This document shows positions 3,342 to 15,109 of a stretch of 27,894 bases of DNA, piece after piece (position 1 is the stretch's first letter; each line of letters begins with the position of its first letter). The DNA comes from a virus. A program made the translations under genes and the position numbers. The notes below the pieces were generated by a model. The model did no database searches. It worked only from the letters and a program-made list of their open reading frames with translations, and had not been told where the DNA came from. The stretch spans positions 1 through 27,894 of IMG/VR virus record IMGVR_UViG_3300042564_002035. One strand, written 5' to 3'.

Positions 3342-3364
3342 ATTAAAAATAGATTATATCTTTG
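3342..3364 (+). promoter_or_regulatory. Early promoter P1 (Bacteroidetes type)
   Basis: A -7 box TATCTTTG at 3357-3364 matches TAnnTTTG, with the ATTAAAAA block (3342-3349) found at the same place in the other host-type promoters of this window. It drives the small early genes from 3396. The 31-base leader is A-rich with no G/C structure. Confidence 0.6.
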
Positions 3365-5894: not shown

Positions 5895-5919
5895 GGAGGC
5901 TTTGTGCCTCCTTTTTTTT
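5895..5919 (+). terminator. Rho-independent terminator after the SSB-like gene
   Basis: GGAGGC (5895-5900), TTTGT loop, GCCTCC (5906-5911), then eight T. It isolates the SSB transcript from the replication operon downstream. Confidence 0.9.
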
Positions 5920-6152: not shown

Positions 6153-6176
6153 ATTAAAAATTAATTTATATATTTG
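6153..6176 (+). promoter_or_regulatory. Early promoter P3 for the primase-helicase operon
   Basis: TATATTTG at 6169-6176 is an exact TAnnTTTG box; ATTAAAAA at 6153-6160 and the following TTAATTT match P4 almost base for base. No clear TTG -33 element is seen here. The transcript would begin about at the 5' strand of the leader stem at 6181. Confidence 0.7.
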
Positions 6177-6180
6177 TATC

Positions 6181-6253
6181 ACTTCGACTATCAAAAAAAC
6201 ATTATTACTAAGGGATAATGAAACCAGTGTCGAAGTTGGTGGATTTATCCCTT
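6181..6253 (+). promoter_or_regulatory. Leader pseudoknot upstream of the primase-helicase operon
   Basis: Stem A is 8 bp, ACTTCGAC (6181-6188) with GTCGAAGT (6229-6236). Stem B is 9 bp, AAGGGATAA (6210-6218) with TTATCCCTT (6245-6253). The strands interleave A-B-A'-B' with loops of 21, 10 and 8 nt, then 17 A/T-rich nt to the ATG at 6271. Stem B alone, followed by TTT, could also act as a weak terminator competing with stem A. Stem A starts a few bases after the -7 box, so the RNA would begin with this structure. Confidence 0.55.
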
Positions 6254-6270
6254 TTTAAATTTATTTAATT

Positions 6271-6504
6271 ATGAAATTATTTATCTCCAATCGTTACGAA
6301 ATGGAAGACGAACTCAAAGAGTTCAAAATTGATCCTAAAATTTTTCATTCAATTGTTTATCACAAACTTTTGAACTCAATCGAGATTGACGATTGCATTC
6401 CCTTAACTTTGTCAGCTAAATTTAACGACGACGATATAGTTGTTTTGAATTTTACAACTACAAAAAACGAAATTTATTATTATAATTTTAAAGCCGTAAT
6501 ATGA
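6271..6504 (+). CDS. Small hypothetical protein of the replication operon
   Basis: A 77-residue acidic protein (MKLFISNRYEMEDELKEF...), with a probable helix at the N-terminus and a beta-rich end (DDDIVVLNFTTTKNEIYYYNF). No family is recognised. It is the first gene after the P3 leader and overlaps the primase-helicase by 4 bases, so the leader structure controls both through coupling. A regulatory or replication-accessory role is guessed from position only. Confidence 0.6.
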   Translation: MKLFISNRYEMEDELKEFKIDPKIFHSIVYHKLLNSIEIDDCIPLTLSAKFNDDDIVVLNFTTTKNEIYYYNFKAVI

Positions 6505-8846
6505 TAACAATATTTTCAAAAATCACAGACGTTGAAAATCCATTTTTTGATGAGATTGACAATGTACTTTTATCATTTAAAGACGGAAGTAATAAAGATA
6601 AAATAGAGTCGTTAAGATTAATCGACGACAAAGAGAAACGCAACCAGGCGAAAGGAAAATTAAAGTCCGTTTGTTTTAGTGGGGAATTTTCTCGACGAGC
6701 TGCAAAAAATTGCGTAACTCATTCCGGATTTGCGTGCTTAGATTTTGACGACGTTGACGATGCGGTTTGTTTACGAGATAGCTTACAGGATAACGAGTAT
6801 ATTTATAGCGCTTTTATTAGTCCCTCCGGAAATGGAGTTAAGGCAATAGTAAAAATACCGGCAGAAATACAAAACCATAAAAAATATTATGAGGCTCTTT
6901 GCGAAACTTTTGACACCAACCTCGACACAAAAACAAAAGATATCTCTCGAGTATGTTATGAGAGTTATGATCCGGAGTTGTTTATTAATCATAATTCAAA
7001 AGTTTGGATTTTAAAAAACGAGTTCACAGAGATAACTCGAAAAAATAATTATCCAACTCATTTTCAAATTAACGATACCTCAAAAAAGGTCGACGTAATT
7101 ATTAAATGGTTTAATAAAAAATTTACCTTAAACGCTGGAGAGAGAAATAACAATCTTTTTAAATTGGCCTCCGGATTAAACAGAGCCGGACTTCCAAAAG
7201 ATGAGGCGTTTGGATTGTTTAAAAATTACTACTCGGCCGGACTTAATGACTCGGAACTCGAAATGATTATTAATAGCGCTTATAAAAATACGAGCGAGTT
7301 TGACAGCCTTACTTTGGTTGACGACAATAAAATAAGAGAGGCTCAGGAAATACTAAAAAAGGGGGTACAAAAAGCCAAAAAACAATTTCGCAAAGACGGA
7401 TTAACGGATACAGATATTGAGGAGTTAATCGATTTCGATTTTGAGGACGATTTTTTGGTTTTTTGGGACGTAGATAAAAACGGGAAACTCTCTTTAAATG
7501 ATTATAAATTTAAATTGTTTTTAGAAAATAGGGGGTTTTATAAAGTCCAATTGAATGACAAAGAGTTTACATTTGTCAAAGTATACAATAATATTATAAA
7601 CGAGGTTAATGAGGTGCAAATCAAAGATTTTGTACTTAATCACGTGATTGAGGTAGATATGCAAGTTTATAACTTCTTTGCTAAGTCAACGACTAAATTT
7701 ACAGAGGGATATTTAAACCAACTCGACACAAAGGATCTCACAATGATAAGAGACACGGCCGACACTTCTTATCTATTTTTTAAAAATAAGGTTGTTGAGG
7801 TAAAAATAGACTCGGTTAATTTTATCGATTATATTAATATCGGAGGCTTTGTGTGGCAAAAAAACATAATAGACTACAATTTTAAAATCACTCAAGACAA
7901 GTCAGATTTTGAAAGTTTTATTTTGAATATATCCAACCAAGACGAAAGCAGAAAATTAACACTTGAAACCTCAATCGGATATTTATTGAATACCTATAAA
8001 AAACAAGACGAGGGCTTGGCGATTGTTTACTACGATGAGACTTTAAACGACAACCCAAGCGGACGAACTGGTAAAACTTTAATATCAAAAGCTCTCGGAC
8101 ATTTGCGTAAAATGGTAACTTTAAACGGAAAGGAATTTAATAACAAAGGTCAATTTCCTTATCAAACGATTAACCTTGACGATAATATCATTTGCTTTGA
8201 CGATATGGAGCGTTCGTTTAAGTTTGAGACGTTATTTAGTATAATAACGGGAAATTTGACTTTAAACAAAAAGAACTTGCAACCTATTGAAATACCATTT
8301 TATAAAAGTCCTAAAATATTATTTACTTCAAATTATATTTTATCCGGAGTTGGAGACTCTCACGACGCGCGTAAAATTGAAATCGAATTATTTAGACACT
8401 ACTCAAAAAAATATAAGCCGGTAAACGAGTTTGGTAAAATGTTTTTTGACGGTTGGAATGAAAACGAGTGGAACGCCTTTTTTAATTATATGATAAGTAA
8501 CATTCAAAAATATTTTAAAAATGGTTTGATTTACTCGGAATTAAAAACCGGTAAAACTAAAAAATTAATCGCCAATACTTGCGAGGATTTTTATGACTTT
8601 TGTGAGAATGAATATTTATGGAAAAATGATTATTTTTATACTACAAAGGAGATAATGCAATCCTATGCCGACGGAGTCCGAGAAATGCCTCGAAATATGA
8701 ATGTGAGTTGGTTTGGACGTTGGTTGGGAACTTACTTTGAGTTTAAACAATGGAAACGAGAAGACACCACAAACGGAGGTATTCGTAAATTTTCAATAAA
8801 CGGATTTAAGACAGAGGACGAAAACGAAGACGACTTAGCTTTTTAA
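6501..8846 (+). CDS. Primase-helicase (VirE/BT4734-like primase domain plus SF3-type helicase)
   Basis: A 781-residue protein with three visible parts. The N-terminal part carries SGFACLDFDDVDD (acidic cluster Asp81, Asp83, Asp84) and SPSGNGVKAIVKI (107-119), the active-site style of archaeo-eukaryotic primases of the BT4734/VirE-N group common in Bacteroidetes. Then comes a helical primase C-terminal segment (GERNNNLFKLASGLNRAG...). The helicase part has Walker A NPSGRTGKT (518-526), Walker B IICFDD (563-568) and motif C ILFTSN (606-611), which fits superfamily 3. It would prime and unwind at the phage origin. The end (TEDENEDDLAF) copies the acidic tail of the SSB-like protein. It is followed 2 bases later by the SF2 helicase. 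Confidence 0.88.
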   Translation: MITIFSKITDVENPFFDEIDNVLLSFKDGSNKDKIESLRLIDDKEKRNQAKGKLKSVCFSGEFSRRAAKNCVTHSGFACLDFDDVDDAVCLRDSLQDNEYIYSAFISPSGNGVKAIVKIPAEIQNHKKYYEALCETFDTNLDTKTKDISRVCYESYDPELFINHNSKVWILKNEFTEITRKNNYPTHFQINDTSKKVDVIIKWFNKKFTLNAGERNNNLFKLASGLNRAGLPKDEAFGLFKNYYSAGLNDSELEMIINSAYKNTSEFDSLTLVDDNKIREAQEILKKGVQKAKKQFRKDGLTDTDIEELIDFDFEDDFLVFWDVDKNGKLSLNDYKFKLFLENRGFYKVQLNDKEFTFVKVYNNIINEVNEVQIKDFVLNHVIEVDMQVYNFFAKSTTKFTEGYLNQLDTKDLTMIRDTADTSYLFFKNKVVEVKIDSVNFIDYINIGGFVWQKNIIDYNFKITQDKSDFESFILNISNQDESRKLTLETSIGYLLNTYKKQDEGLAIVYYDETLNDNPSGRTGKTLISKALGHLRKMVTLNGKEFNNKGQFPYQTINLDDNIICFDDMERSFKFETLFSIITGNLTLNKKNLQPIEIPFYKSPKILFTSNYILSGVGDSHDARKIEIELFRHYSKKYKPVNEFGKMFFDGWNENEWNAFFNYMISNIQKYFKNGLIYSELKTGKTKKLIANTCEDFYDFCENEYLWKNDYFYTTKEIMQSYADGVREMPRNMNVSWFGRWLGTYFEFKQWKREDTTNGGIRKFSINGFKTEDENEDDLAF

Positions 8847-8848
8847 TT

Positions 8849-10078
8849 ATGAAACTCAGAGACTACCAAATTAAAATCTCAGCTCAAGCGGCTGAGGTTT
8901 TAGATCACAAAAAAATCGTCTATTTAGCAATGGAAGTGAGAACAGGTAAAACTTTGACGGCTTTAAATACGGCAAAGATATTCGGAGCTAAAAAAGTCTT
9001 ATTCCTAACTAAGAAAAAAGCAATCTCCTCAATTCAGTGGGACTACGATAACTTTGGTTTTGACTTTGATATAACAATTATAAACGATGAGAGTTTACAT
9101 TTAATTGAGGGAAGTTTTGATTTGATTATACACGATGAGCATCACAGATTTGGAGCATATCCAAAGCCGAATAAAGTCGCTCAGCTATTTAAAAAGCGTT
9201 ATTCAAAATTGCCAATGATATTTTTATCCGGAACGCCAACTCCGGAGAGTCATTCGCAATGGTTTAATCAATTTTGGGTTTCCGATTACTCTCCATTTAA
9301 ACAATATACGAACTTTTACAAGTGGGCGATTGATTATGTTGACGTAAAAGAGAAACGACTTGGATATGCTGTTATAAAAGATTACTCTCAAGCCAAAGAG
9401 TCATTAATCAAAAGAGTAATTCAAAACTATTTATTGACTTTTACGCAAGCTCAGGCCGGATTTACGACCTCAGTTAACGAAATGATTTTAGAATGTGAGA
9501 TGCAACCGATTACCAATTTGATAATTAACAAGCTCAAAAAGAATTTAGTCGTTAAAAATACGGACGGCCAAGTCATTCTCGGAGATACCGGAGTTAAATT
9601 GATGCAGAAAATTCACCAACTGTCAAGTGGGACTTGTAAGTTCGAAGACGGATCGAGTAAAATAATTGATTATTCAAAGGCTGAATTTACTCTCGAAAAA
9701 TTTAAGGGAGTAAAAATTGCTATTTTTTACGTCTTCAAAGAGGAATACAACGCTTTGCTCTCAGTTTTTGGCGTCGAGAACTTGACAAATGACGTCGAAG
9801 AGTTTGACAATTCCGATAAAAATATCGCTTTGCAAATCGTCTCCGGACGTGAGGGAATAAGTTTAAAGAATGCCAAATACTTAGTCTATTATAATATCGC
9901 TTTTAGTGCGACAAGTTACTGGCAATCTCGCGCAAGGTTAACCACAAAAGAGCGTTTAAATAACGAGGTCTTTTGGATATTTAGCAAAGGAGGAATAGAA
10001 CTTGACATTTACAAAGCTGTATTAAAAAAACGCGATTACACTTTGAAAATTTTTAATCAAAATTATTTGCGTAATTAA
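8849..10078 (+). CDS. SF2 DNA helicase / ATPase (SNF2-like)
   Basis: A 409-residue protein beginning KLRDYQIKISAQA (Q-motif-like). Motif I is RTGKT (31-35), motif II DEHH (96-99), motif III SGTP (127-130), motif V GREGISL (333-339) and motif VI QSRAR (359-363). The compact layout without insertions is typical of phage SNF2-type helicases near replication genes. It probably remodels or unwinds DNA in replication or recombination. It lies 2 bases after the primase-helicase in the same operon and ends just upstream of promoter P4, whose -33 element overlaps its last codons. Confidence 0.9.
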   Translation: MKLRDYQIKISAQAAEVLDHKKIVYLAMEVRTGKTLTALNTAKIFGAKKVLFLTKKKAISSIQWDYDNFGFDFDITIINDESLHLIEGSFDLIIHDEHHRFGAYPKPNKVAQLFKKRYSKLPMIFLSGTPTPESHSQWFNQFWVSDYSPFKQYTNFYKWAIDYVDVKEKRLGYAVIKDYSQAKESLIKRVIQNYLLTFTQAQAGFTTSVNEMILECEMQPITNLIINKLKKNLVVKNTDGQVILGDTGVKLMQKIHQLSSGTCKFEDGSSKIIDYSKAEFTLEKFKGVKIAIFYVFKEEYNALLSVFGVENLTNDVEEFDNSDKNIALQIVSGREGISLKNAKYLVYYNIAFSATSYWQSRARLTTKERLNNEVFWIFSKGGIELDIYKAVLKKRDYTLKIFNQNYLRN

Positions 10079-10098
10079 AAATTAATTTTATATATTTG
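10067..10098 (+). promoter_or_regulatory. Early promoter P4 for the DUF3310 operon
   Basis: The best Bacteroidetes-type promoter of the window: TTG at 10067-10069, a 21-base spacer holding ATTAAAAA (10074-10081) and TTAATTTTA, then TATATTTG at 10091-10098. Both elements and the spacing fit the known -33/-7 consensus. Confidence 0.8.
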
Positions 10099-10102
10099 TA
10101 CA

Positions 10103-10168
10103 ACCGCCAAAGTAAAGTATTTAATAATTCCCTTTTCTTTTGCGCTTGGCGGTAGCAATCGAGGAGGG
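10103..10168 (+). promoter_or_regulatory. Leader pseudoknot upstream of the DUF3310 operon
   Basis: Stem A is 8 bp, ACCGCCAA (10103-10110) with TTGGCGGT (10146-10153). Stem B is CCCTTTTC (10130-10137) with GAGGAGGG (10161-10168), 8 pairs of which two are G-T. Loops are 19, 8 and 7 nt, and 15 nt (T-rich) remain to the ATG at 10184. The order and loop lengths nearly repeat those at 6181-6253 although the sequences differ. Confidence 0.55.
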
Positions 10169-10183
10169 TTTATTTTTTATATT

Positions 10184-10444
10184 ATGAAAAAAACTAATTT
10201 TTTTGACTCAGTTCAAAATCCATACGTCAAAAATAATTACGACGAAAATGGAATTACAAAACCTAAGCAATATCAAATCGGTATCGATACCTTTGAGCGA
10301 GCTGAGGCAAACTTAAGTAAAGAGGAAATCTTAGCGATTTGCAAATTTAATATTGACAAATACAACTGGAGAAAAAAATACCAAGACAAAGAGGATTTTC
10401 AAAAAATTATTGATTATGCTAATTGGGCTATAAAAAATTTATAA
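10184..10444 (+). CDS. DUF3310-like phage protein (nucleotide-kinase-related)
   Basis: Eighty-six residues. The region YQIGIDTFERAEANLSKEE, then ILAICKFNIDKYNWRKKYQ, DKEDFQKIIDYANWAI follows the DUF3310 pattern (YxxxIxT...LSxEExxxxCxxNxxKYxxRxxxK...EDxxKxxxYxxWxI). T7 gp1.7, a nucleotide kinase, belongs to this group, so a role in nucleotide metabolism during replication is possible. The catalytic basis is not established for most members. It is the first gene after the P4 leader. Confidence 0.65.
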   Translation: MKKTNFFDSVQNPYVKNNYDENGITKPKQYQIGIDTFERAEANLSKEEILAICKFNIDKYNWRKKYQDKEDFQKIIDYANWAIKNL

Positions 10445-12417: not shown

Positions 12418-12425
12418 TATATTTG
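12418..12425 (+). promoter_or_regulatory. Host-type -7 box upstream of the sigma operon
   Basis: TATATTTG matches TAnnTTTG exactly. Only four bases separate it from the ATG at 12430, so a transcript from it would be leaderless or nearly so. No well-spaced TTG is seen. Confidence 0.4.
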
Positions 12426-13974: not shown

Positions 13975-15109
13975 AATTGCCAAACTAAGAAAACGAGTTC
14001 GGATTGTGCAAGGTGGGACGAGTAGTTCCAAAACGTTTTCGATATTGCCATTACTTATAACTTACGCTATTCAAAATCCATTTTCGGAGATAAGTATAGT
14101 TAGTGAGTCAATCCCTCATTTAAAACGTGGAGCTTTAAAAGACTTCCAAAAGATAATGTTATTAACTGACAATTATCGAGATGCTAATTTCAACCGCTCA
14201 TCATTAAAATATACATTCTCGAATAATTCCTATATTGAATTTTTCAGCGTCGACCAACCCGATAAATTAAGAGGAGCAAGGCGTGATATTTTATTTGTAA
14301 ACGAGTGCAATAATATCGACTTTGAAAGCTATCAGCAACTCGCAGTCCGTACTAAAAAATTTATCTATTTAGACTACAACCCAACGAATGAGTTTTGGGT
14401 GCAAACGGAACTATTAAACGATGAGGACTCCGACTTTGTTATTTTGACGTACAAAGATAACGAGGCACTCGATCCGGCAATCGTCAAAGAGATTGAGAAA
14501 GCAAAAGACAAAGCGAGTACCTCAACGTATTGGGCGAACTGGTGGAACGTTTACGGACTCGGTCAACTTGGATCACTTGAGGGAGTGATATTTCAAAATT
14601 GGGAGACAATCGACACAATACCTACGGAGGCGAAATTCTTAGGGAGTGGACTTGACTTTGGTTACTCAAATGATCCAACCGCTCACGTTGCTGTTTATGA
14701 TTACAATGGTAAAATTATAGTTGACGAGTTAATTTATAGCACCTCACTTTTGAACTCCGATATAATTCGACTAATGAAACAGGAACGCACCGCTCCAATT
14801 TGGGCGGACTCAGCCGAGCCAAAATCAATTGAGGAGATAAGACGAGCCGGATTTAATATTAAGCCGGTTGTCAAGGGAGCTGACTCAATCAATTACGGAA
14901 TTTCGGTATTACAACAAAAAGAAATCTTAGTCACTAAGTCAAGCACCAATTTAATAAAAGAGTTGAGGAGTTATAGTTGGGACGTTGACAAAACCGGTAA
15001 AAAATTAAACCGTCCTATCGACGAATTTAACCACGCAATTGACGCCTTGAGATACTTCGCTATGATGAGCCTCGCAATAAACAAATCGAGACGCGTAATA
15101 ATCACATAA
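13946..15109 (+). CDS. terL: Terminase large subunit
   Basis: A 387-residue packaging motor and nuclease. The ATPase has Walker A QGGTSSSKT (22-30), Walker B DILFVNEC (114-121; Glu120 catalytic) and the coupling motif IYLDYNPT (140-147). The RNase H-like nuclease has LDFGYSNDPTA (236-246, Asp237), ADSAEP (287-292, Asp288) and EFNHAIDALRY (360-370, Asp366). This is the Terminase_3 (PBSX-like) type. It pumps DNA into proheads through the portal encoded at 25593. The start codon lies in the end of the small subunit gene. It is unusually far from the portal and capsid genes. Confidence 0.96.
   Translation: MFQKTTAQSKIAKLRKRVRIVQGGTSSSKTFSILPLLITYAIQNPFSEISIVSESIPHLKRGALKDFQKIMLLTDNYRDANFNRSSLKYTFSNNSYIEFFSVDQPDKLRGARRDILFVNECNNIDFESYQQLAVRTKKFIYLDYNPTNEFWVQTELLNDEDSDFVILTYKDNEALDPAIVKEIEKAKDKASTSTYWANWWNVYGLGQLGSLEGVIFQNWETIDTIPTEAKFLGSGLDFGYSNDPTAHVAVYDYNGKIIVDELIYSTSLLNSDIIRLMKQERTAPIWADSAEPKSIEEIRRAGFNIKPVVKGADSINYGISVLQQKEILVTKSSTNLIKELRSYSWDVDKTGKKLNRPIDEFNHAIDALRYFAMMSLAINKSRRVIIT

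Follow-up and report, generated by a model that had tools for sequence, protein, structure and literature searches.

The two leader regions at 6181-6253 and 10103-10168 of the viral DNA analysed here (27,894 nucleotides, referred to as the window) almost certainly belong to a class of 5' leader RNAs that act in cis and have a common fold, as judged from sequence comparison. It is apparently a large, undescribed leader-RNA class of Flavobacterium-type phages, located right after promoters and before DNA-replication and homing-nuclease genes. The original prediction had described two leaders with a common geometry. This geometry is real, but the two leaders are not an isolated pair, and the class comprises at least 61 sequence clusters.

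Both window leaders read A-B-A'-B', with two interleaved stems A and B. Their parts and the adjoining genes are as follows:

6169..6176, + strand: -7 promoter box TATATTTG of leader 1; transcription would start at 6181 or 6182, by the spacing in F. johnsoniae (PMC6847099)
6181..6188, + strand: leader 1, stem A (kissing/pseudoknot helix), 5' strand ACUUCGAC, beginning at the predicted first nucleotide
6210..6218, + strand: leader 1, stem B (P2), 5' strand AAGGGAUAA, from scan and covariation
6219..6228, + strand: leader 1, UGAA of the internal loop (6219-6222), P3 5' strand ACCA (6223-6226), then GU
6229..6236, + strand: leader 1, stem A, 3' strand GUCGAAGU, from scan and covariation
6237..6244, + strand: leader 1, P3 3' strand UGGU (6237-6240) and GGAU of the internal loop (6241-6244)
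6245..6253, + strand: leader 1, stem B (P2), 3' strand UUAUCCCUU, with a U-run at 6252-6256 after the GC part
6271..6504, + strand: gene 1 behind leader 1, 77 aa, no assigned function
6501-8846 and 8849-10078: primase-helicase gene (BT4734-like/PriCT primase), then helicase gene, behind leader 1
10091..10098, + strand: -7 promoter box TATATTTG of leader 2; predicted transcription start at 10103 or 10104 (spacing from PMC6847099)
10103..10110, + strand: leader 2, stem A, 5' strand ACCGCCAA
10130..10137, + strand: leader 2, stem B (P2), 5' strand CCCUUUUC
10140..10158, + strand: leader 2, possible P3 around A', UUGC (10140-10143) with GCAA (10155-10158); weak, with 73% of cells paired and no double changes
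10146..10153, + strand: leader 2, stem A, 3' strand UUGGCGGU
10161..10168, + strand: leader 2, stem B (P2), 3' strand GAGGAGGG
10169..10179, + strand: U-rich tract UUUAUUUUUUA abutting stem B of leader 2
10184..10444, + strand: DUF3310 gene, the first gene behind leader 2

An exhaustive scan for interleaved stems 3' of each TATATTTG box returned, as the best pair in each leader, exactly the stems of the original prediction. Stems A and B comprise 8 and 9 bp in leader 1 (loops of 21/10/8 nt) and 8 and 8 bp in leader 2 (loops of 19/8/7 nt). The spacing from B' to the ATG amounts to 17 nt in leader 1 (ATG at 6271) and 15 nt in leader 2 (ATG at 10184), and the 5' strand of stem A opens at the fifth base past the box in both. 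These spacings agree with the earlier description, as do the operon genes named there, the BT4734-like/PriCT primase and DUF3310. The statement that the primary sequences differ completely holds for the transcribed parts alone, since the ~26 nt promoter stretch just 5' of both leaders is 96% identical; the view that structure rather than sequence is kept was borne out. Two other -7 boxes of the window, at 3357-3364 and 12418-12425, are followed by plain leaders without the fold, and the element is therefore not used at every promoter. A strong plain terminator (GGAGGC-TTTGT-GCCTCC followed by eight T) is located at 5895-5911, 5' of the leader-1 promoter.

In dinucleotide-preserving shuffles, the observed stacking energy was matched in 1 of 1000 cases for leader 1 and in 2 of 1000 for leader 2, so that equal scores are rare in this comparison, which had been named beforehand. 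When every position on both strands of the window was scanned irrespective of promoters, the two leaders ranked second and third by stability, and a few other sites, mostly in coding sequence, are similarly stable. The most stable interleaved pair of the 28-kb window is found at 14524 on the minus strand, antisense within the terminase gene, and is taken as a chance occurrence. As this coding-region site outranks both leaders, the stability of a single site is weak evidence; stability alone was therefore dropped as an argument, and comparative evidence is needed. The deciding evidence is the position after a promoter, the recurrence in many phages and covariation.

Relatives were collected as 114 loci of uncultivated viruses, reached via the primase and helicase genes adjoining the leaders, and further loci were added by promoter pattern and by promoter-plus-terminator pattern. 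In the related viral contigs, an interleaved knot of -24 kcal or lower is present in 94 of 468 regions after TATATTTG, compared to 2.7 in shuffles; at -26 kcal or lower, the numbers are 85 of 468 and 0.67, respectively. The wider promoter pattern TAnnTTTG is followed by 3238 regions, and these contain 136 leaders with a knot of -26 kcal or lower (9.7 in shuffles). The expanded set of 173 leaders falls into 101 sequence clusters, 65 of which have a gene start 8-30 nt downstream. The strict class consists of 61 sequence clusters. Leader lengths in the primase/helicase contigs are bimodal, with plain leaders mostly of 20-50 nt and a second group of 80-109 nt. This element accounts for 81 of the 107 leaders of 80-109 nt and is almost never found among the shorter ones. 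A search with the pattern TATATTTG...GGGTTTTTT mostly detected ordinary terminators; 14 of its 78 hits reach -24 kcal or lower (1.6 expected), and about half of these 14 look like clear new members.

Close relatives retain the stems. Leader 1 reappears, slightly altered, ahead of the primase operon, and several dozen contigs have leader 2 behind the helicase gene, before varied genes. In L025, L047, L073, L091, L100 and others, the leader-2 RNA after the helicase gene is almost constant and is followed by a gene that differs by contig, as if promoter plus leader 2 were an exchangeable module. Conversely, L011, L015 and L107 carry leaders of unrelated sequence after the same kind of box with the A-B-A'-B' order kept; in L107, three unlike leaders occur within one phage.

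Comparison of the leaders predicts an RNA in which a loop-loop (kissing/pseudoknot) helix A-A' joins two hairpins. In the usual design, the loop of a 5' hairpin (P1) supplies A. The loop of an inner hairpin (P3) supplies A', and P3 extends P2, which corresponds to stem B; 3' of P2 follow the U-tract and then the start codon. Although P1 and P3 played no part in leader selection, P1 is present in 49 of 68 cases and P3 in 53 of 68, compared to 11.6 and 16.3, respectively, in shuffles. The internal loop between P2 and P3 combines GAGUA with GAAA in 10 clusters and UGA with GAU in 14, and these strand pairs are never mixed. We take the former to resemble the bulged-G (loop E, sarcin-ricin) motif and the latter to resemble tandem G-A pairs. 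The internal-loop motifs occur in only part of the clusters, and no helix base is conserved across clusters. Leader 1 of the window has P2, the UGAA/GGAU internal loop, P3 and the A-A' stem and lacks P1; leader 2 has P2, the A-A' stem and the weak P3. The window leaders are thus a shortened form of the class, with no clear P1 and with stem A itself at the predicted transcript start. The pseudoknot geometry first proposed applies to this reduced form, but most members show loop-loop kissing of two hairpins and not a bare H-type pseudoknot.

Transcripts of F. johnsoniae begin 4-5 nt past the -7 box (PMC6847099). The first base of P1 is located 4-5 nt past this box in 24 of 45 clusters and 2-7 nt past it in 40 of 45. 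With the start site predicted from the F. johnsoniae spacing, at most a few bases at the 5' end would remain unpaired. On the 3' side, 80-88% of positions +1 to +5 after P2 are T, and the share is ~35% ten bases further on. Because this profile was made on a set prefiltered for T, the U-tracts were recounted without the filter: at least four T within 8 bases 3' of P2 are present in 61 of the 65 clusters that have a gene 8-30 nt downstream, the T count not having been used in choosing these 65 clusters. A stable hairpin with a directly abutting U-tract, as in an intrinsic terminator, is accordingly found in 61 of 65 clusters, and a few clusters, e.g. L028, have no U-tract. The U-tracts are mostly runs of 5-6 T and are shorter than that of the plain terminator at 5895-5911. 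The start codon is in most cases 9-26 nt from P2 (range 8 to 48 nt), whereas the distance between P2 and the U-tract is constant; the U-tract remains at P2 even when the ATG is 20-46 nt away. The element thus appears to span the transcript from about +1, with the start predicted, to a terminator-like end.

Covariation in homologs had been suggested as a check, and it was found. In the leaders of NUMOD4-HNH genes (alignment A1), 95.9% of cells are paired, compared to at most 49% with the partners slid. Eleven pairs changed on both sides, located in P1, A and P2, and there are 30 doubly changed cells versus 9.5 in shuffles. The leader-1 family (A3) has 7 pairs changed on both sides versus 1.1. 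In the leader-2 family (A2), stem B shows 9 doubly changed cells versus 2.8, and stem A is invariant in 16 homologs. The expectation that covariation would show both stems to be kept therefore holds in this family for stem B alone, the invariant stem A being uninformative. As each family is small and made up of related members, these counts are not probabilities; the slid-partner controls retain the relatedness and yet fail. Taken together, covariation in the three families supports the predicted P1, kissing stem and P2.

The class has been found so far only in phage sequences. Among cultured phages, Flavobacterium phage FCL-2 (F. columnare) carries one member (37482, + strand) before gp54, an O-like replication initiation protein, and phage elemoF (Baltic Flavobacterium) also carries one. 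No clear member was found in Cellulophaga phi46:1 and phi12:1, Polaribacter Leef_1, Bacteroides BT-TP2, Flavobacterium FpV9 and pippi8-1, or in 50 of the 61 kb of Manatee Spring phage; a presence in all Bacteroidetes phages was thus rejected. Host-type contigs of two Bacteroidetes MAGs (470 boxes, ~310 kb) gave 7 knots versus 10.4 at -24 kcal and none under the strict definition, and a host leader type was rejected for lack of an excess. Leaders also accompany the phage helicase in contigs assigned to MAGs of Flavobacteriaceae (L215) and Bacteroidetes (L216); the L216 leader behind the box at about 11468 is a member with P1. The downstream genes include those for primase-helicase, DEAD helicase, DUF6291/DUF7833 and O-like initiators, DUF3310, KilA-N and MT-A70 methylase as well as NUMOD4-HNH, GIY-YIG and T5orf172 nucleases; no structural gene was found among the downstream genes with a family match. 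In four contigs, a tRNA-like gene lies within ~10 nt of a leader-2-type RNA, with no start codon near. Rfam confirmed the tRNA-like genes in both contigs tested, L091 and L092, and L064 and L098 show the same arrangement by eye. The genes at L091:7307-7410 and L092:8309-8412 are ~104 nt long and match the Rfam tRNA model with 29.7 and 39.2 bits, although ARAGORN reported no tRNA beside these leaders.

As to function, the original prediction had named translation, RNA stability or attenuation. The U-tract after B', absent from that prediction, points to transcription, and the other two remain as rivals. With somewhat less than even confidence, we propose from the arrangement of the leaders that they may act as promoter-proximal conditional or partial terminators (attenuators) of replication and homing-nuclease genes. 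P2 and the U-tract would form a pause or termination signal. The A-A' contact would form as the RNA exits the polymerase, so that the P2 hairpin loop would be held by the RNA 5' end, and would determine if P2 closes, or at what rate. In this way, expression would be limited or timed for early genes that are dosage-sensitive (replication initiators, primase-helicase, homing nucleases). An effect on transcription is favoured because the U-tract is fixed to P2, because the genes are dosage-sensitive and because leaders occur before tRNA-like genes. As the helix sequences vary, even among the leaders of one phage, a sequence-reading ligand is unlikely, and the fold or its stability should matter. 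No mutually exclusive antiterminator pairing is evident by eye, and no conserved aptamer was found. Against an attenuator speak the U-tracts, shorter than that of the plain terminator, the few clusters that have none, and the pairing from the first nucleotide, which would fit protection of the mRNA equally well. We also consider, though with considerable doubt, that the leader is a sequence-agnostic device: a kissing-hairpin RNA, extending in full from about +1 to the U-tract, that would control the polymerase transcribing it by its fold alone (termination, pausing or antitermination), without ligand or sequence-specific protein, and that Flavobacterium-type phages would use as an exchangeable module before replication and homing genes.

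Chance interleaved complementarity in A/T-rich leaders might be suspected from the similarly stable single sites elsewhere in the window. It has next to no probability in view of the excess after TATATTTG boxes, the share of the element among leaders of 80-109 nt, covariation while slid controls fail and the lack of enrichment in host-type contigs. A coincidence of the two window leaders was likewise rejected, given the class-wide excess, the 101 sequence clusters and the 81 of 107 long leaders. A role as 5'-end protector, in which the leader would seal the first mRNA nucleotides in a helix against RNA pyrophosphohydrolase and 5'-end-dependent nucleases and so stabilise phage mRNAs, would agree with P1 beginning where F. 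johnsoniae transcripts start (PMC6847099), exactly the place of stem A in the window. Stabilisation of mRNA by 5' secondary structure is known (reviewed in PMC3997798), and freely varying sequence suits a purely structural role. Such a protector would, however, need neither a U-tract fixed to P2 nor a kissing contact, the genes served are not abundant structural ones, tRNA processing would presumably remove any leader ahead of a tRNA-like gene, and the start site is itself a predicted position. We therefore regard this role as fairly unlikely.

Control of translation, with the knot near the start codon governing ribosome access, perhaps with a phage protein bound to it in the manner of the T4 gene 32 leader, seems to us distinctly improbable. 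The ATG is usually 9-26 nt past P2, the tail of the leader is rich in A and U, in T4 gene 32 a 5' pseudoknot likewise precedes an A/U-rich start region (PMC535899), and mRNA structure near the start tunes flavobacterial initiation (PMC6847099). On the other hand, it is the ATG distance that varies from 8 to 48 nt and not that between P2 and the U-tract, the leaders of one phage have no obvious common recognition sequence, and some leaders precede tRNA-like genes. A put-like antiterminator, i.e. a nascent leader that would bind its own RNA polymerase and make it resistant to downstream pausing or termination like HK022 putRNA, would share with putRNA the site right after an early phage promoter, a similar size, two touching hairpins and replication operons downstream, and putRNA needs no phage protein (PMC9378689). 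Since putRNA works via specific bases and its pause site is 21 nt past stem II, whereas here the U-tract touches P2, the helix sequences vary freely and several leaders precede apparent single nuclease genes, we give this explanation little credence.

Comparison with known systems shows partial likeness only. The T4/RB69 gene 32 operator is a 5' leader pseudoknot followed by an A/U-rich start stretch in which structure is required more than sequence (PMC535899). The present leaders share with it the location in a phage mRNA leader, the 5' pseudoknot, the A/U-rich start region and the replication gene. That operator, however, comprises ~28 nt before a single gene, without P1, kissing loops or a hairpin-fixed U-tract, and controls the gene of its own single-strand-binding protein, while here many genes are served (primase, helicase, initiators, DUF3310, nucleases), with several unlike leaders per phage. 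HK022 putRNA, an RNA-only antiterminator of ~73 nt with a pause site 21 nt after stem II and no need for a phage protein (PMC9378689), is similar in its cis-acting position directly after early phage promoters and in its two contacting hairpins from near +1. It differs in acting via specific bases, in having no described kissing contact of this kind and in carrying no U-tract on a hairpin. Its conserved bases contact the zinc-binding domain of polymerase beta'; across the clusters here, no helix base is conserved, and the internal-loop motifs occur in part of them. The 5' stem-loops of the ompA/papA type also hold the 5' nucleotides in a helix (PMC3997798), but as described they are single hairpins without loop-loop contact or U-tract. 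The STAXI motif consists of tandem repeats of two or three pseudoknots and, as described, is not tied to a promoter plus U-tract. Plasmid rep attenuators of the pT181 and pIP501 type are leaders before a replication initiator gene that end in a terminator-like hairpin with a U-tract and are driven by antisense RNA. The leaders described here resemble them in position and in this end; unlike in those plasmids, antisense promoter boxes are not in excess (0.74 versus 0.61 per kb), and antisense control was rejected.

Rfam covariance models gave no match in the window at gathering score, the two window leaders reached chance-level scores only, and members in FCL-2 and other contigs gave tRNA matches only. 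A known riboswitch or other Rfam family was thus rejected, in agreement with the suggestion of a new phage RNA element in the original prediction. No description of leader pseudoknots or kissing leaders in phages or Bacteroidetes was found in the open-access literature. Phage leader RNAs acting in cis are a known kind of element. To the extent that the present searches reveal, the novelty lies in the build of kissing hairpins between +1 and the U-tract, in the tolerance of sequence change and in the broad use within one phage group. As the fold is highly tolerant of sequence change, searches with sequences or with one covariance model will probably overlook the class. It would be a new structured leader RNA family in phages of Flavobacterium-type hosts, and its recurrence before replication initiators, primase-helicase genes and homing nucleases, whose dose is worth controlling, would offer one common, testable control point. 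With a member in each of the cultured phages FCL-2 and elemoF, the question can be addressed now.

Some further RNAs were observed beside the class. The HNH-nuclease leaders at L155:7190-7303 and L158:502-631 have a much longer A helix (~10 and ~16 pairs, respectively) and a short B stem and are possibly a class variant. At L237:614, L253:3613 and L289:2043, leaders or small RNAs after TATATTTG have a strong terminator end and no clear knot. Two of them, in L253 and L289, carry CCAAACGAGGGC near the 5' end and may represent another phage RNA family.
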